64,000 bases of DNA, taken from the NCBI GenBank assembly GCA_014925825.1, contig JACGCK010000208.1:1-64000 (forward strand), in the 5' to 3' direction. Positions 17,855 to 53,594 of the stretch are shown here, in pieces. The DNA comes from Pholiota molesta. Taxonomy: Eukaryota > Basidiomycota > Agaricomycetes > Agaricales > Strophariaceae. The position numbers and the translations under genes are program-made. The notes beneath the pieces were generated by a model. It worked only from the letters and a program-made list of their open reading frames with translations, made no database searches and had not been told where the DNA came from. Within the stretch, counting starts at the first letter, position 1, and each line of letters starts with the position of its first letter.

Positions 17855-18586
17855 TCAACGAGAAATATTGCTCACCCTTAGAGGAGCCATCTGCATCGGA
17901 CGATGTCCAGACTGCGGCGGCATGACAAAGTATCCAGGGTTCATCTGCGGCGGATACGCCCCACCCGCAGCAGGCCCATACTGGTACGCAGGCGACACAG
18001 GCGGCGACGCGACGTAATACCCGCGCGAGCGCGACGTCGTCGACGAGTGCGAGTGCGCGTGCGCGTGCGAGCTGCGGTGCCGGCGGTGCGGCGACGGCGG
18101 CTTGTACAGGTACTGCAGCATGTGCGGGGACGGCGCGCCCATCTGCGGCGCGTACGCGGGGTGCTGCTGCGGCGCGTACGCCATGCCCATCCCGGGGCTG
18201 ACGAGCGGCGTCGGGCCCGGGCCTGCGCCGTACTCGTCCGACGACACGGACTCCGGGCTTGGGGGCGGCATGTACATCGGGCGTTGGGGCGCCTGCAGCG
18301 GGGCGCGCGCGCCGTAGTACGCCGCGCCGCCCATCTGTGGCGCTGGGTATTGCGGGTGCAGCCCGGGAAGGGGCAGCGGCGGGGGAGGGGGCGCCTTGCG
18401 CAGGCGCTGCTGCTGCTGCTGCTGCTGGCCGGACGACGGGTGCGGGGGCGACGCGGGGGGGCTGGGCCCGACGGCGTTCTCGAAGGCGGGCCTGTGGTGC
18501 TCCGTGTTGTCGACCCAGTTGGCGATGCGAGTCTGGGTGGCGAGGTAGCGGTCGTACGCCTCTGGGGAGTAATCGTATTCCGTCAT
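17855..18586 (-). CDS. Proline/glutamine/histidine-rich protein of unknown function
   Basis: An open frame of 243 codons plus stop from the ATG at 18586. The first 40 residues look ordered and acidic (MTEYDYSPEAYDRYLATQTRI, then NWVDNTEHHRPAFENAVGP). The rest is low complexity: a run of seven Gln, Pro runs, repeated PQMGAP/APQ words, a His/Ser/Arg stretch (RRHRSSHAHAHSH) and Tyr-Pro-Gly-rich repeats. No known domain is recognised. A GT donor lies at AAG|GTGAGC just before the stop, so the true C-terminus may be spliced elsewhere. Such sequences are common in intrinsically disordered fungal proteins; no role is proposed. Confidence 0.55.
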   Translation of the reverse strand: MTEYDYSPEAYDRYLATQTRIANWVDNTEHHRPAFENAVGPSPPASPPHPSSGQQQQQQQRLRKAPPPPPLPLPGLHPQYPAPQMGGAAYYGARAPLQAPQRPMYMPPPSPESVSSDEYGAGPGPTPLVSPGMGMAYAPQQHPAYAPQMGAPSPHMLQYLYKPPSPHRRHRSSHAHAHSHSSTTSRSRGYYVASPPVSPAYQYGPAAGGAYPPQMNPGYFVMPPQSGHRPMQMAPLRVSNISR

Positions 18587-19345
18587 ATCGAATCGAATCG
18601 GTCGACGATATCGATGGGCTGCGCGAGAGAGGAGGAGAAGGAGGGCGGAGAGAGGAGAGAGAAGAATTGGGGAAAGCGCGGGGGCTGGGGAATCGCCGAA
18701 CAAGGACGAATGGAGCCTTTTATAGCGAGTCGGGTTCGGTCGCCTGGCGACCGGAGCGGAGAGAGGCTCTGTTTGCGGAACAAGGCAGTTGAACGCATCG
18801 TAAGTTCAGGAATCAGCGTCATATCAACGGGGCAGTGCAGAGTGCACCGGATCTAGCCCACAGAGGCGACGCACGACCTCGCATGACTAGCAGCACATCC
18901 CTGCACAACACCCTCACATCATCCACAGTGCACCCAGCAACGCACATCTTCCGAGTCTTCGCAACTACCACCCACTTATCAATGCTTTTGTTCACTTTTT
19001 GTTAGCTGCATTCCAATCAATCCGATTCTTGAATTAAGAAAATAGCCACGACTATCGACTGGCGATCGACGCCTCGTATGTAAGTAGATACAACAAAATA
19101 CACTAATGAAAAGGGACCAGCGTCATCCAGCCACGCGCAGCAACATATCTAAGCAAGTATAAAAAAACACGCTCCTTCCATTGCATCAAAACGACAACAA
19201 TAACTCATTTACCCTGGAACCAGTGCTACAACAAAAAAAAATTGACGACAGCGTGGGTCAGCATATCAATTATCCTTGGAGAAGACACCGTCATGCGCAG
19301 CTGGCAATGACCCGGACTCACCAATACAGAGTACCCGTAGCTGCT
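18587..19345. other. Intergenic between the Pro-rich gene and the KEP-like gene
   Basis: Promoter of the Pro-rich gene on the left and 3' flank of the repeat-peptide gene on the right. No gene seen. The plus-strand frame entering from 19181 is an artefact of the 63-bp repeats. Confidence 0.6.
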
Positions 19346-20301
19346 TTAGTAGGGCACAATCGTTCCCTGGGGGGATTTGACCGGGTCTTCCGCGGGGATC
19401 TGGCGGCGGGCGTAGGGCACAATCTGGCCATTGGGCGCCTTGACGGCGTCTTCCGCGGGGATCTGGCGCTTGCTGTAGGGCTCGATGGTGCCGTTGGGGG
19501 CCTTTACTGCCTCCTCCGCTGGGATCTGGCGACGAGAGTAGGGCACGATCGTTCCCTGGGGCGACTTGACGGGGTCCTCAGCGGGGATCTGGCGCTTGGC
19601 GTAGGGCACAATCGTTCCTTGAGGCGACTTGACGGGGTCTTCCGCAGGGATCTGGCGACGAGAGTACGGAACGATCTTGCCATCGGGCGCCTTGACGGCC
19701 TCTTCCGCGGGGATCTGGCGCTTGCTGTACGGGACGATCTGGCCGTTGGGCGCCTTGACGGCTACCTCCGCCGGAATCTGACGACGACTGTAGGGCACAA
19801 TCGTTCCTTGAGGGGATTTGACGGGGTCCTCGGCGGGGATTTGGCGACGCGCGTAGGGCACGATCTGGCCGTTGGGCGCCTTGACGGCGTCCTCCTCAGG
19901 AATCTGCCTCTTGGCGTAGGGAACGATCTGGCCATTGGGGCTTTTGACGGGGTCTTCGGCGGGGATCTGGCGACGAGAGTAGGGCACGATTGTTCCCTGC
20001 GGCGATTTTACTGGGTCCTCGGCGGGAATTTGGCGCTTGGAATAGACGGGGATGGTCTCCAGAGGGTCAAGAGAGCGCGCAGCGAGGTCTGCGTCGCGCA
20101 TGGCAACCTAGGAGAAGGGAGGAATCATAACGTGTCAGATGCATGACGGAACAAAGTTGGATAGATGAGCGCGAAAGATGGATAGATGGCGCGGAAAAAA
20201 AGATGGCAACGTACCCTCATAGGCATGGGGATGGTGGCGGCGAGCGCCTGGCCGGCGAAGACCAGCGTCAGAAGAGCGACAAATGCGGTGCGGGAAAACA
20301 T
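19346..20301 (-). CDS. Secreted kexin-processed repeat-peptide precursor (KEP-like)
   Basis: Two exons: 20215-20301 and 19346-20107; 282 aa. The start is a textbook signal peptide (MFSRTAFVALLTLVFAGQALA, then ATIP). A short pro-region ending VYSKR is followed by eleven tandem units of 21 residues. Each begins QIP(A/E)E, continues with VKSPQG or VKAPNG, ends (T/Q/K)I(V/E)PY plus S or A, and closes with KR or RR. The last unit ends at PY and the stop. Kex2 cuts after KR/RR in the Golgi, so about eleven near-identical peptides of 18-19 residues would be secreted. Their N-terminal Gln could cyclise to pyroglutamate. No Cys is present. Related designs are alpha-factor, Ustilago Rep1 and fungal KEP/dikaritin precursors. 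No UstY-type or other tailoring gene is adjacent. An AATAAATA element lies about 260 bp upstream. Confidence 0.88.
19349..20032 (-). repeat. Eleven tandem 63-bp coding repeats
   Basis: The repeat array of the precursor: ten full 63-bp units and a final 54-bp unit. Two unit types are interspersed (SPQG-type and APNG-type), and KR and RR sites alternate irregularly (five KR counting the pro-region, six RR). Identical units are not simply neighbours, which suggests past unequal exchange or conversion. Confidence 0.93.
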
Positions 20302-20794: not shown

Positions 20795-23385
20795 ATGTCG
20801 GACCCCCGTTTCGCCAGACTCAAGTCTGACCCCCGTTTCCGCCGCCCCAAAACAAAAACGAACAAGGTCGTCATCGACGAGCGCTTCAAGAGCGTTCTCG
20901 CACAGGACAAAAAGAAAAATGGTGTGCCGCCCGGCCTTACACCCATCTCGTTGTCTCCATCTACTAATACCTTCTGATCCCTAATTTTAGCAGGTCGCAA
21001 AGTTGACAAATACGGCCGCCCCGTTTCGAAGACACAGTCGCAGGACAATCTGCGCCGGTACTACCGTCTAGAGGGCGATGACGCCGATGAAGACGGGCCC
21101 AGAATCCCGGATCTCGCGCGCGGAGAGGTCATGCTCGAGTCCTCCGACGAAGACGACGACGACGATGCGAAAGGGAACGACGACTCGGACTCGGACGACG
21201 GCGGCTTCGTCACCCTCGGGCGGGACTCCTCGCGCCCTATCGCCGTGCACGACGAGGACGAGGAAGCAGAGATCGACCTCGACGAGGACACCTTCGCCGA
21301 CCTCGACGCACAGGCCGTGGCTTATGCCCAAACCCACGACGACGACGCCGCGGAGGACAGCACGCCCGCGGTCGCGCGCACCGCCCGGCTCGCGATCGTC
21401 AACCTCGACTGGGACCACGTCCGCGCGCACCACCTGTACAAGATCTGCGCGTCGCTCGTGTCGCCCACCGCGCCCGTCGTGCGCGCGTCGGCGACGTCCT
21501 CGTCGTCCACCGCCGCCATCGACGCCGCGGACCGGCTGCGCGGCAAGGTCAGCTCGGCAAAGGGCCGTGGCGGGAAGGGCGCGGGCGCGACGACTGTTGT
21601 GCGCGGGCAGGTGCTGAGCGTGAGGGTGTATCCGAGCGACTTTGGGAAGGCGCGGATGGAGCGCGAGGAGAAGGAGGGCCCGCCGGCGGAGATTTTCAAG
21701 AAGAAGGACGTGGAGAATCCGGAGGAGGTGGATGAGAAAAATGTGTACGAGGTGGGCGGAGAGGACGAGTACGATGAAGATGCGTTGAGGAAGTATCAGT
21801 TGGAGCGGTTGAGGTAGGTGTTTTTGATTTTTCTTTGTGAGAGCTTGTGCTGATTTCGGGGATAGATATTATTATGCGATCGTCACATGCGATACGGTTG
21901 ACGCTGCGTCGCATATTTACAACGAGCTAGAAGGCACCGAGCTCGAGCGCTCTGCGAATGTGTTTGATATGAGCTTCGTTCCTGAAGACATGACCTTCGA
22001 AAACGAGCCTCGGTACGCCGCCGGTGCATCTTATGTGATCGCATGCATCTAATTAGCCTATGTAGAGACGAAGCCACAGACGAAGCTAACACCGAATACA
22101 AAGCAGTCGAATTCGTCACAGACGTACGTCCCAACCACATTCTCCCCAAAACCAACTAAATAACATTCCTTGAAAACAGGCCCTCCGCCACTCCAAGGTC
22201 AAACTAACATGGGACGAGGATGACCCGGAGCGCAACCACATCACACGGCGCGCACTCACAAAAAAGGAGATCGAGGAAAGCGACTTCCGCGCGTACATCG
22301 CCAACACCTCCTCCGAGTCCGAGTCCGACGCCGACGCCGCCGCCCCCGCCGCCCCCGCCGCCCCCTCCAATAAGAAATCCAAAAAGGACAAGAAAAAGGC
22401 CGCGCGCGATAAGATGCGCGCGCTCCTCCTTGAGGGGAACGACGACGCGATGCCGGAGGGCTGGGGCGGCGATGACGCGCAGGGCGGGGGCGATGATGGG
22501 GACGATGTGGATATGGAGATCACGTTCACGCCGGGGCTGAGCGCTGCGGCGAAGGAGGGCGAGGAGACGACGCTGGAGCGGTACCAGCGCAAGATGCGCG
22601 AGAAGCGGAAGAAGCGCAAGGAGCAGATGAAGGAGCAGGGCGAGGAGAAGGAGGAGAGCGGGAAGAAGGGGGAGAGGAAGAAGGAGAAGAAGGTGGATGA
22701 TGAGTTCTTCGAGGCGGATAGTGAGGCGGAGCGTCCTGCTGAGGAAGGCGAAAGGTCGCATAAAGACAAAGGCAAAGATAAGGGTAAAAGCAAGAGCAAG
22801 AAAGCACGTCATGCGGATGCTTCCGACGAGGAGAGACCGGCTGCGCGTAAGGAGGCTACGGAAGAGGAGCTCGCGCTGCTCGTCGCGTCGAACGACCCGG
22901 ACGCCGAGCCGAAGCACTTCAGTCTCAAGTCCGTGATCAAGGCCGAGAAGGGCAAGAAGCACAGGAAAGGCCGCAAAGAGAAGAACAAGGAGGACGACGG
23001 CGAGGCGCAGGAGGACTTTGTCGTTAATGTCAAAGACGAGCGGTTCAAAGTATTGTTTGAGGATCATCATTTCGCTATCGATCCTACGAACCCTCAGTGC
23101 GTTTCTTTTTCTTTTCGGTTCAGAGGGAAGACTGGTAGCTGATAAGATGCATTGTTATCTATTTATTTCAGTTTCAAAAGGACGAAAGCGATGGGTGCTC
23201 TACTGGAAGAGCGACAAAAGCGCCAGCGCGAGCTGCGCGACCAGCGCCCCGAAGGCGAGGCCGCCAAATCGAAGCCGACAGAAGGGACAAATGCGAAGAG
23301 CCTACAGAGCTTGGTGGAGAGTGTGAAGCGCAAGAGTGCCAACGCCGACCCACCTGGCCAGGGAAAGCGCAGAAAGCTGCTGTAG
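20795..23385 (+). CDS. ESF1: Nucleolar pre-rRNA processing protein Esf1
   Basis: Small-subunit processome factor needed for early cleavages of 18S pre-rRNA. Exons: 20795-20921, 20994-21813, 21866-22012, 22066-22123, 22180-23096 and 23172-23385; 760 aa. Diagnostic segments are the N-terminus (MSDPRF, FRRPKTKTNKVVIDERF), DKYGRPVSK, the central RRM-like block (ARLAIVNLDWDHVRAHHLYKI; VLSVRVYPSDFGKARM; YYYAIVTCDTVDAASHIYNELEG) and the C-terminal NUC153-type motif (DERFKVLFEDHHFAIDPTNP, then HFKRTKAM). Long acidic Asp/Glu tracts and Lys/Glu-rich coiled segments lie between them, as in other Esf1 proteins. It converges on NUDC. Confidence 0.95.
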
Positions 23386-49144: not shown

Positions 49145-50596
49145 CTATCCCTCCTGCGATGGGATATCTACTTTCTTCCATCCTCCACATTTAAAGGTTA
49201 ATTCCGTTGCATCTGAGCGATCCCTGGGCTTGGTTATAATAACATTATAAGAAGGTGAAGTGTTCTGTCTCGACTTTGTAAACTTTGGAAGTGGGGCTGA
49301 TAGTAAATGTTTGTGAAATTTCACTAGAGCGTCGCCAAATGAATATCCGCCCCTTTTAATGAAATAGTTGAGGATGATATTGACTTGCGGGACGGCATTA
49401 AACATTGGCTGCACCAAAACAGAATCCATTACAGGCCATTCATTGGGCGTATTCATGGTGAGATATGGGGCATTGTAATTATGCGATGCTGTCATTTCCA
49501 GATTGAACTTCCTTAGCGATCGAGGAAATGAGCAAGATTGGAGGACACGGCAAAAAGGATCAATAATATCATGCAAATATATCCCAATGTCTTTGTATGA
49601 TATTCGCAATGAGGATAGTCTGCTGAGAAGGTGGAAAGGGTATATTGCAGTAGGCAAAGAGTGGGATGGACTAGAATTCTGAAGCCAGTCATGTCCGATG
49701 AGTTGGATATGGAGTATATGAAGGGTGTTTACAGCGTTGCCCGCGATATTGATTATGTTTTGTATCCCCCCAGTCAGTTTGGCTTGAAAATATAAAGTGT
49801 GGAGTTCCACGAAAGCTGACTGATATCGTGATACTACGTTGGCCGATCTATTGCCCAAATGAAGCAGATCGACAAGAGAGAAGGATTCGTCGAGGCCTAT
49901 GGATTCCAAGATTGTGACATGAGGGGCGTCGACTTCAATTTTACTTCGTGTCAGCCGAGTCTCATATAACTCCAGATTTTTGAAATGGATGCCATGGAAG
50001 AGAGACCTCGGAATACCGAAGAGTCCGCAGAGTCGCACATGCTGCAAATTTGGAGAGCGCAATATGTTTTCAAAAGCGCAGATGAGCTGATTATCCATTT
50101 TCGTATATTCCAATGTAAAGTGTCCAATCCTAGCGTTGAAGCGTAGAGATTCGATGCCGTGGTTGGGTCCATGCAAAATATCGATGATACGATGCACGGT
50201 TGCATCTCGAAGAAATTTGTAGGAATAACTTGAATCATGACTCGGAGCTCCTGAGATAGTTAGACAGAAAGAGCGTATGTGATAGATCATCCCAAGGTTT
50301 GGAAAGTTGAGGCTATCTTGCAATAAGGTGACAAAGCGTTGAATAACTTGAACTGCTGATGCGAAAAGCCTTTTATTGAAAGCTGGTGAAGAAACCTTCA
50401 GGCGCAAAATTGCTGAGGAAAAGAGCCTCGAATATGCAGCTACACAAAAAGAACGCGAGACCATTGCGTAGGCACGCAATATCGCGCGATTTTCAGCGGA
50501 TTCCAGAGTGTCGCGATCATGCCAGGCAGTGGGAGGAGGGAGAACGAAGTAGTCAAGAATAAGGTCATGGATTTCCTGTGGTATGTCGACTTTCAT
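49145..50596 (-). CDS. F-box-like protein, tandem family member 1
   Basis: Intronless, 483 aa from the ATG at 50596. The N-terminus (MKVDIPQEIHDLILDYFVLP) is F-box-like, expected to bind Skp1. The rest consists of irregular Leu-rich strands (for example FKNLELYETRLTRSKIEV; LVDLLHLGNRSANVV) of the type seen in the expanded Agaricomycete F-box families. Clearly paralogous to the gene at 51010-52518 over the whole length (shared RFVTLLQDSLNFPNLGMIYH, LHGPNHGIESL, MDSVLVQPMFNAVPQ). Substrate unknown. An upstream in-frame extension lacks an ATG, so this start is preferred. Confidence 0.75.
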   Translation of the reverse strand: MKVDIPQEIHDLILDYFVLPPPTAWHDRDTLESAENRAILRAYAMVSRSFCVAAYSRLFSSAILRLKVSSPAFNKRLFASAVQVIQRFVTLLQDSLNFPNLGMIYHIRSFCLTISGAPSHDSSYSYKFLRDATVHRIIDILHGPNHGIESLRFNARIGHFTLEYTKMDNQLICAFENILRSPNLQHVRLCGLFGIPRSLFHGIHFKNLELYETRLTRSKIEVDAPHVTILESIGLDESFSLVDLLHLGNRSANVVSRYQSAFVELHTLYFQAKLTGGIQNIINIAGNAVNTLHILHIQLIGHDWLQNSSPSHSLPTAIYPFHLLSRLSSLRISYKDIGIYLHDIIDPFCRVLQSCSFPRSLRKFNLEMTASHNYNAPYLTMNTPNEWPVMDSVLVQPMFNAVPQVNIILNYFIKRGGYSFGDALVKFHKHLLSAPLPKFTKSRQNTSPSYNVIITKPRDRSDATELTFKCGGWKKVDIPSQEG

Positions 50597-51009
50597 GGCG
50601 GCCAAAGTCGTAATCGTGACGTGTGAAGGTCGGTGGAACAAGGTTGCAAGCCTACAAAAGCGGCAGGTTGATATGTTTCACGATATAGTTCGTGGATATA
50701 AAACAGATCACAGCATACCTCAGATTACCTGAAGGCCAAAAGCTTGCAAAAAGCTTGAAGAGTTTGAAATTTGGGCTTGAAGTTTCGATCAAGGATGGAC
50801 TCGGTTGCTCGTTGGTTACTCGGTTCTTTGCCTTGAAGACGGTTGGAAACAAGAACAAATGCAGAATATTTTTTGAATCATTTCTGACATACACAGTCAA
50901 TCACTCACATGGTTCAACTCAATTGAAACTCACTAGTACTGCAATTTTTTCAACAAAATTAAGGTTGATGTTCTGATCACGGGTAGGACATGTAAAGATC
51001 AACATGGGA
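50597..51009. other. Spacer between tandem F-box genes
   Basis: Promoter of member 1 and 3' flank of member 2. No further gene. Confidence 0.55.
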
Positions 51010-52518
51010 TCAACATGGAATATCTAATATCTTCCTCCCTCCACACTTCAAGGTCACTCCCTTCCGATTCGATTCCGAGTGATTCATATTCTGATGCCCC
51101 GAGGACTGATCAGGGTACCTTTGAATAACAACAACACTGATACAGGGTAGTGAGCTGCCTCTTCTCGATTCTGAAAAGTTGGGAAGGGCGTCCAACGACA
51201 AGAAATCTTCGATATTAGTTTTCTGCAACTCCGCATACTCGTTTGATTGATATCCATAAATGGGGTATTCGAGGATAATCTTGGTTTGCGGAATGGCATT
51301 GAACATTGGTTGCATCAAAACAGAATCCATTGCAAGCCATTCGTCGAGTTTATTTAACTGATAATGTCGGCCATTGAAGCAACCTGACGCCATTGTCTCC
51401 ACGCTGAGCATTTTCAGAGATTCAGGGATCGTGCTTGATTCAAGTATGCAGCGGAAAGGATAAATGACATTATGCCAGCCTAGCCCAATGGTTTTGGATG
51501 ATAATCGTAGCGAAGAAAGCCTAGGGAGAAGGTGAAAAGGGTGTATCGGATCTGGTGAAGAGCTGAATTTTTGCCCACGCCATTCGCCAAAAAGGTGGAT
51601 GTGAAGTGTTTGTAAGGTGTTTGCCGCGTTGGCGGCAATGTTTATCGCCTTTGGAATCCACTTGAGCAGGTGAACTACAAAGTACAACGCTTTGAGTTCC
51701 AAAAAAGCCGCCTGATACCGCGATGTAGTGTCAATGGACTCATTGCCTGAATGTAGGAGGTCGACTAGCCGAAAGGGTTCGTCCGCACCTATGGATTCCA
51801 TTGTGATTATTGGAGGAGCATCGAGTGTATTTCCGTTGCATTGTATCGCGGTGTTATATAATTCGATGTTTTTGAGCTTCGTACCGCGGAGTAGAGTTCT
51901 TGGAAAGCCAAGGAGTCCATTGAGCCGCAAATGCTTTAGGCTGGGAGAGCAAATTATATTTCGAAAAGAGCAGAGAAGATCATGTTTGATATAGATTTCT
52001 CTGTATTCTAACTTTCCGTAGCCCATGTCCAAGGCTAGAGACTCGACACCATGGTTAGGTCCATGCAAAACGTCAATCAGATGATGAATGGTCGCATCAT
52101 GGAGAAAGCTGTCGGCCTGGCTCAAATTGCAATCTATCTGAATAATGAGAGCAAAAGACCGAATGTGGTAGATCATCCCAAGGTTCGGAAAGTTGAGGCT
52201 ATCCCGCAATAGGGCAACAAAGCGTCGAATGACGGACGCAACAAGCCTTGCGTTTCGAATCCGCGAAAAGGCCTTCATGCGAAGAACTACTGAGGAAAAC
52301 AGCCTCGAGTTTGCATTAGCACAAAAGGAGCGCGAGACCATCGAGTAGGCACGCAATGTCGCTCGATTTTCAGCTTGCGGAGACTCGCGATCATCCCAAG
52401 CTGCGGGAGCTGGGATACAGAAATGATCAAGAATAAGGTCGTGGATTTCGAATGGTAAGGGAGTTGGATCGCATCGTGGGTTGGCTAAAATAGCTTTTCG
52501 AGCTTCATGGAGGTCCAT
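51010..52518 (-). CDS. F-box-like protein, tandem family member 2
   Basis: Intronless, 502 aa from the ATG at 52518 (MDLHEARKAILANPR). F-box-like helix pair PLPFEIHDLILDHFCIPAPAAW at about residues 19-40, followed by RATLRAYSMVSRSFCANANS and a long Leu-rich repeat-like region. Full-length paralogue of member 1 in the same orientation, spacing about 410 bp, so a tandem duplicate. The C-terminal GGRKILDIPC matches GGWKKVDIPS of member 1. No assigned substrate. Confidence 0.75.
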   Translation of the reverse strand: MDLHEARKAILANPRCDPTPLPFEIHDLILDHFCIPAPAAWDDRESPQAENRATLRAYSMVSRSFCANANSRLFSSVVLRMKAFSRIRNARLVASVIRRFVALLRDSLNFPNLGMIYHIRSFALIIQIDCNLSQADSFLHDATIHHLIDVLHGPNHGVESLALDMGYGKLEYREIYIKHDLLCSFRNIICSPSLKHLRLNGLLGFPRTLLRGTKLKNIELYNTAIQCNGNTLDAPPIITMESIGADEPFRLVDLLHSGNESIDTTSRYQAAFLELKALYFVVHLLKWIPKAINIAANAANTLQTLHIHLFGEWRGQKFSSSPDPIHPFHLLPRLSSLRLSSKTIGLGWHNVIYPFRCILESSTIPESLKMLSVETMASGCFNGRHYQLNKLDEWLAMDSVLMQPMFNAIPQTKIILEYPIYGYQSNEYAELQKTNIEDFLSLDALPNFSESRRGSSLPCISVVVIQRYPDQSSGHQNMNHSESNRKGVTLKCGGRKILDIPC

Positions 52519-53594
52519 GGAAAACAAGACTGGAATGCAACTGGAAGCTTGCTGGAAGGAGGCCAAGCAAAAGGCGTACAAGATGATTTGGGTGGCTGCC
52601 AAACAGATCAAAACAATATTAACCTAACTTGAAAGAGACCCTTGCAACGTTGTTGCAACGACCTTGCAGCAATTCGAACAAGCCTCTGACTCAATGATAT
52701 CTAGGTCATCAATAAATAAATTCCTGAGCCTGCGAAGTGGAACAAAAACGCAAAGAAAAAAAAATCCCGACGCTATAACATATGCCAGTATTTATTCCTC
52801 TTATAAAGGGATATACCCAATGCTTTTTCCCCTCCACAGCTCAACCACATCCCCGAGACCAGGTCAATTTTAGATGTCTCTGAGCGACCACGACTGCTGA
52901 GAACGGTTCCCGCCCTTTTGATAATTAATAACGTCGATAAAAGGCAATGGCCCACATTGTCTCGTGTTTCAAGACTCTGGAAGGTTATCCAACAATGCAT
53001 TTCAGGTCCTGTTCTGCAAGTTCAAGTTAGCATCATTGACATACGGAGGTACGTACGTCGGTAGAATACTGTAGGACGACCAAAACAGAATCCATCGCAA
53101 GCCATTTGTCGCGGATAGGCGGTTCATTGAATTGAAAACTAGCGGTATTTCAGAAATGCCATACTTCTGGCTCAACACTGAAGATTTAGAGTGATGGAGA
53201 AAGTGTGCGCGATTCGGATAGTCGACGTAGATGTTGGATTATAAACTGGTCAACAAAATATGACCCAACAATTTTGGAAATGCGCAAGGAAGAAAGCCGA
53301 ATAAGAAGATGAAATGGGTATTTCGGAGTAGGCGAAGAGTGGAGATGAACTCAAGTGGGACCAAGGTGGATGTGAAGTGTCTGGAGCGTGTTTGTCGCAT
53401 AACGCATTGGTGGCAATATTAATCGCGTTCAGCACCATATAGCAGTGTCGATATGGTATCTGGATCGTTTACAGAATAATCCACCAGTGACGGAAAAGGA
53501 CTCATACAGATTGATGGATTCCATGTTGGGAACAACGAGTTCTTCTCCTATCTGAATATGATATAACTCGAGTGTTTTATATGACATTATTTAT

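Follow-up and report, generated by a model that had tools for sequence, protein, structure and literature searches.

The locus described here raises the question whether a secreted repeat precursor of Pholiota molesta represents a peptide family of its own, as had been proposed in the initial annotation of the sequence, or whether it belongs to a family that is already known. In this work we analysed the precursor within a window of 64,000 nucleotides of the P. molesta genome. With high confidence we assign it to the agaricomycete KEP 497993 family of KEX2-processed repeat proteins, an assignment that covers homology and processing.

The gene lies on the minus strand at positions 19346..20301; these coordinates had been given correctly before, and the strand, then left unstated, is added here. 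It is composed of two exons with a predicted product of 282 amino acids. Exon 1 (20301..20215, minus strand) carries, in our splice model, the signal peptide MFSRTAFVALLTLVFAGQALA, whose hydrophobic core and cleavage site between ALA and A were assigned by eye, followed by ATIPMPMR, with which the pro-region opens. The intron (20214..20108, minus strand; GTACGT...TCCTAG) measures 107 bases, and 108 in the other haplotype. Four candidate GT-AG introns retained the open frame, and this one was picked as the predicted splice because of its borders, namely GTACGT, a pyrimidine tract and CTAG. Exon 2 (20107..19346 including the stop codon, minus strand) encodes the remainder of the pro-region, a degenerate first peptide, LDPLETIPVYS-KR, and eleven cores. 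The spliced frame bears out the signal peptide, the short pro-region and the lack of cysteine (0 in 282 residues) that had been noted initially.

The core array (20032..19349, minus strand) contains eleven 18-residue cores of the pattern QIPxExxVKxPxGxIxPY, the dominant form being QIPAExxVKxPxGxIVPY. Eleven of the 18 core positions are invariant among the eleven units (Q1, I2, P3, E5, V8, K9, P11, G13, I15, P17 and Y18). The initial annotation had counted eleven 21-residue units, each closed by KR or RR. The number of cores stands, as do ten of the closures, each made of Ser or Ala followed by a dibasic pair (6 RR, 4 KR); the eleventh core lacks a dibasic closer and terminates in IVPY followed by the stop codon. 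An additional SKR lies directly ahead of the first core. With Tandem Repeats Finder the array scored 546 to 663 at periods of 63, 126 and 189, as against 50 to 71 for the remaining eight rows found in the window. A long plus-strand frame at 19181..20146 was taken for a by-product of the repeat. Rfam and tRNA scans gave 0 matches, and Pfam found nothing above its curated cut-off in the window protein.

A search of the P. molesta assembly (65.6 Mb, 625 contigs) with the precursor gave at least four matches falling in two loci, which are mutually allelic. The second copy lies on contig C223 and is read as the other haplotype of the dikaryon, since the flanking neighbours on either side, and segments farther away at 27.9 and 45.7 kb, appear there in the same order; a paralogue was rejected on the same grounds. 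Six collinear blocks of more than 800 bases link the window's contig to C223 with 92-97% identity. Between the two alleles 35 of 849 coding bases differ, as against 1 of 282 residues. The sole change, R179K, falls within a dibasic site, which is still dibasic. The Nei-Gojobori method gave dN 0.007 and dS 0.16, with a nonsynonymous step count of 4.5 that exceeds the one changed residue because the method averages over paths. Since so many bases and only one residue differ and the dibasic site is preserved, we consider this a real, selected gene. Among the eleven units (55 pairs, pooled) pS was 0.56 and pN 0.11, the frame being kept while silent sites diverge. Elevated allelic divergence at the locus, suggested by a first look (95% vs 99%), was discarded after a 1-kb profile, in which the locus had 3.6-3.8% mismatches vs 0.7-8.7% across the bins of the window and was nothing special. 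The C223 haplotype carries approximately 8 kb of extra DNA at window position ~7562 and approximately 22 kb at ~43344, possibly mobile elements. The haplotype cross-matches also revealed two adjoining long frames on the minus strand, 49145..50641 and 51010..52611, that are approximately 67% alike in DNA and appear to be a tandem duplicate of a candidate F-box protein.

The closest described counterpart is KEP 497993 of Coprinopsis cinerea, which resembles the P. molesta protein in its repeat precursor, its kexin-type sites, the N-terminal Gln and the PY end of the peptide core on which the comparison was based. By mass spectrometry KEP 497993 was found to yield pyro-QIPAELPTKSINGNIEPY and the same peptide extended by K (Vogt et al. 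2022, PMC9769878). As reported there, these QIPAE peptides occurred mainly in premature caps and were not detected in the culture supernatant, and a further product of the same precursor, pyro-QVPVDEPA, was found in both supernatant and mycelium. All three peptides (3/3) were pyroglutamated, were otherwise linear, and disappeared in the knockout; they persisted in those kex knockouts where this was testable, a persistence that the authors explain by supposed redundancy of the three KEX2 proteases. The same paper counts at least 13 agaricomycete homologues of KEP 497993 (PMC9769878).

Unit 2 of the window, QIPAEDPVKSPNGQIVPY, and the C. cinerea core QIPAELPTKSINGNIEPY agree at 13 of 18 positions, whereas the best of 100,000 shuffles reached 10. 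The P. molesta precursor thus contains the homologous core QIPxExxxKxxxGxIxPY, and two features of a KEP, a signal peptide (assigned by eye) and similar repeats parted by KR, RR or KK (here KR or RR), are present. The proposal of a new peptide family has to be given up accordingly: as regards structure and peptide products, function aside, the search places the precursor in a characterised family. A text search of the literature outside subscription papers and preprints found no further paper containing the letters of the peptide or the name KEP 497993.

The family probably also corresponds to one of the KEP types of Umemura 2020, type #7 (G-1/P-2), which comprises 64 KEPs from 62 strains in 49 genera, Coprinopsis among them, more genera and a wider distribution than any other type, at 1.03 copies per strain (PMC7329392). 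Odd Pfam labels given for type #7, namely DUF2188, TruB_C, DUF1648, TubC_N and CSD2, recurred in our Pfam scan of the precursor family, and on these five common labels we take the two to be the same. The Pfam matches themselves, of which DUF2188 reached E 5.8e-08 and occurred in 3 of 37 members, were put down to chance on short repeats. Three matches of the family profile to solved structures (E 0.06 to 0.89, all named PRP43) were treated as chance as well. The precursor copies in P. molesta, approximately one per haploid genome in a search that gives a lower bound, agree with what is expected of the KEP 497993 family or type G-1.

Relatives were collected in two protein searches, with 17 and 29 matches (19 of the latter new), amounting to at least 36 different related proteins; as each search scored approximately 8000 candidates sharing most words, these counts are lower bounds. 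Sources are named for 11 of the 36: Amanita thiersii, Hymenopellis radicata, two Lentinula, Macrolepiota fuliginosa, Russula decolorans, Serendipita vermifera, Tulasnella sp., Thelephora ganbajun, Agrocybe chaxingu and Rhypophila decipiens. All are Agaricomycetes, with Serendipita and Thelephora outside the Agaricales, except for the ascomycete Rhypophila, whose protein P0033 contains three family units (E 5.8e-13). The genera listed for type #7 we take to be agaricomycetes except for Cyphellophora. With a loose pattern, the 36 relatives and the window protein together gave 113 distinct units with the consensus QIPAEVAVKSDNGVIVPY.

The precursor is flanked by two genes. Downstream and in the same orientation lies an open frame at 17855..18586 (minus strand) that starts with MTEYDYSPEAYDRYLATQ and encodes 243 amino acids, with further exons possible; at E 0.01 Pfam gave nothing for this frame. 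It belongs to a family of at least 55 proteins with a conserved N-terminus, whose named members we take to be agaricomycetes. In the A. thiersii model P0002 a repeat precursor is joined to the N-terminus of this neighbour family, and a shared order of the two genes may be proposed from this one species. A search for fused models among the 55 proteins, which missed P0002 itself, found no repeats joined to them, and the loose motif matches that it gave were judged to be chance. Upstream and divergent, at 20795..23142 on the plus strand, an ESF1-like nucleolar protein is encoded, with RRM_ESF1 in 21131..21817 and NUC153 in 22414..23142; Pfam matched nothing in its first frame, 20795..20977.

A rival reading is that the gene is a dikaritin-type RiPP precursor whose cores would be cyclised by UstYa-type oxidases. 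The precursors of ustiloxin, phomopsin and other dikaritins are built on a similar plan, the P. molesta cores contain Tyr, and the genome has 11 UstYa matches. None of the 11 lies on the window's contig (only 75.7 kb long) or on the allelic C223, so that the initial argument against a dikaritin cluster was borne out on both haplotypes. Likewise 0 of the 64 type #7 members are reported within 15 genes of a DUF3328 gene (PMC7329392), and the peptides of the C. cinerea relative are linear apart from the pyroglutamate (PMC9769878). We therefore regard a dikaritin precursor as very improbable and retain the assignment to the KEP 497993 family. UstYa-family matches elsewhere in the genome include those on C33, C79, C94, C135 and C168, two of them within approximately 1.5 kb of each other on C135, and may mark dikaritin-like clusters.

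A mating pheromone of the alpha-factor type would likewise be secreted as a repeat precursor with kexin-type sites, and ascomycete alpha-pheromone precursors share the signal peptide, the repeats and these sites with the P. molesta protein. The motif IPAE occurs in yeast alpha-factor leaders too. This likeness was examined by ranking the leaders of yeast MFalpha1 and MFalpha2 among 1000 shuffles with the profile of the 113 units. MFalpha1 came 7th of the 1002 sequences and MFalpha2 fell outside the best 15, so that the likeness is ascribed to chance and the yeast leader was rejected as a relative. The P. molesta precursor differs further from alpha-pheromone precursors in having another core, and all its cores begin with QIP right behind KR or RR, without the XA/XP dipeptides of STE13. 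DPPIV-type genes are present in the genome, yet the cores lack any XA/XP stretch. MF_alpha is not among the 25 of 41 Pfam families listed for the 37 members; MF_alpha_N and STE2 gave no match in the P. molesta genome, and none in the control genomes either, so that this negative carries no weight. Taken as an alpha-factor, the precursor is hardly credible, and we proceed with the KEP 497993 family.

The enzymes that processing of such a KEP would call for have candidates in the genome. The P-domain of kexin-like proteases gave five matches: a pair on C333, a second pair on C315 that looks allelic to the first, and a single one on C444. Two of these frames were queried, one from C333 and the one on C444, and yeast kexin was the best solved match of both. 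Among nine M28 matches, one on C444 is a glutaminyl cyclase according to its 34 solved matches, 29 of which are glutaminyl cyclase or cyclase-like, four fly CG32412/CG5976 and one a peptide hydrolase. S10 carboxypeptidases gave 47 exon matches, in which KEX1 is not separated from other S10 enzymes. The initial expectations on processing agree with these data and with the C. cinerea peptides: the kexin-like exons fit the anatomy of a precursor that is secreted and carries repeats bounded by kexin-type sites, cyclisation of the Gln cores has its counterpart in pyro-QIPAELPTKSINGNIEPY and a candidate enzyme in the glutaminyl-cyclase exon, and the published QIPAE peptides do end at or next to PY (PMC9769878).

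Processing may thus be pictured as follows. The signal peptide would direct the precursor to the ER and the secretory pathway, where a kexin-type protease would cleave after each KR or RR and a carboxypeptidase, for which the genome offers candidates, would strip the basic residues. The N-terminal Gln would be converted to pyroglutamate by glutaminyl cyclase or by spontaneous chemistry, the product having been seen in C. cinerea by others, and the leftover Ser or Ala would probably be removed, leaving PY at the end of many copies. Each precursor would then yield for secretion about eleven linear peptides of the form pGlu-IPAE..VK.P.G.I.PY together with one N-terminal LDPLETIPVY(S). The computed [M+2H]2+ values of two predicted peptides, pGlu-IPAEDPVKSPQGTIVPY and pGlu-IPAEVAVKAPNGQIVPY, are 961.499 and 939.012, respectively.

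The end of the mature peptide can be approached through the ends of the precursors. The last residue is exactly Tyr or Phe in 26 of 37 precursors (Tyr in 21, Phe in 5), and these two amino acids make up 5.9% of their residues. After grouping at 60% identity the Tyr/Phe end is found in 11 of 18 groups, one group holding 18 of the 37 precursors. The eleven precursors with another end are P0002 (the model fused to the neighbour gene), P0007, P0009, P0013, P0014, P0017, P0027, P0030, P0033, P0034 and P0035. The frequency of this terminus suggests, from the precursor sequences, that the aromatic residue is the C-terminus of the mature peptide. In Pichia the peptide was trimmed at its C-terminus (PMC9769878), so that the PY end could also be plain wear.

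As to function, with GRAVY values of -0.62 to 0.14 the cores are largely hydrophilic; their side-chain charge of -2 to 0 makes them neutral to acidic, and they contain 3 or 4 Pro in 18 residues. Hydropathy and charge argue against a cationic antimicrobial peptide; synthetic KEP peptides are reported not to inhibit five bacterial strains (PMC9769878). The same core chemistry argues less strongly against a fibril former. As such the product would have a structural or repellent role at the surface, in the manner of Rep1 of Ustilago maydis, whose repeat peptides form fibrils on the hyphae. Rep1 has the same repeat plan and kexin-type sites, the introduction of PMC9769878 describes amyloid-like fibrils made of its peptides, and the location of the C. 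cinerea QIPAE peptides in cap tissue instead of supernatant would suit such a role. Given the Pro content and hydrophilicity of the cores, and the extraction of the relative's peptides as defined 18-19-mers (PMC9769878), we consider a Rep1-like protein unlikely. For the KEP 497993 family member assumed here, our preferred guess, a tentative one, is that the peptide may carry a signal outside the cell, either among hyphae or to other organisms. In C. cinerea the knockout of KEP 497993 is reported to show no visible growth or fruiting phenotype, and six kep knockouts no visible phenotype (PMC9769878). A more specific and more doubtful idea is that the family would serve mushroom-forming fungi as a core extracellular signal, encoded by approximately one copy across the Agaricomycetes with an ascomycete outlier, in which the peptide would be blocked at its N-terminus and a receptor would read the fixed C-terminal aromatic carboxylate.

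The P. molesta precursor with its eleven cores therefore opens no new family, since the family is already in print. New in the present analysis, as far as we have seen, are the P. molesta member, the allele test, the common aromatic end and the neighbour adjoining the precursor in Amanita P0002. The alleles differ at silent sites while the protein is nearly the same, which points to selection on the peptide sequence itself. If the family is type G-1, it is the KEP type with the most genera in the survey of Umemura 2020, and one whose peptides have been seen by mass spectrometry in C. cinerea. The common Tyr/Phe end offers a definite structure for synthesis and testing, and, should the idea of a core signal be true, this end in 26 of the 37 precursors would mark the receptor-binding end of the peptide.
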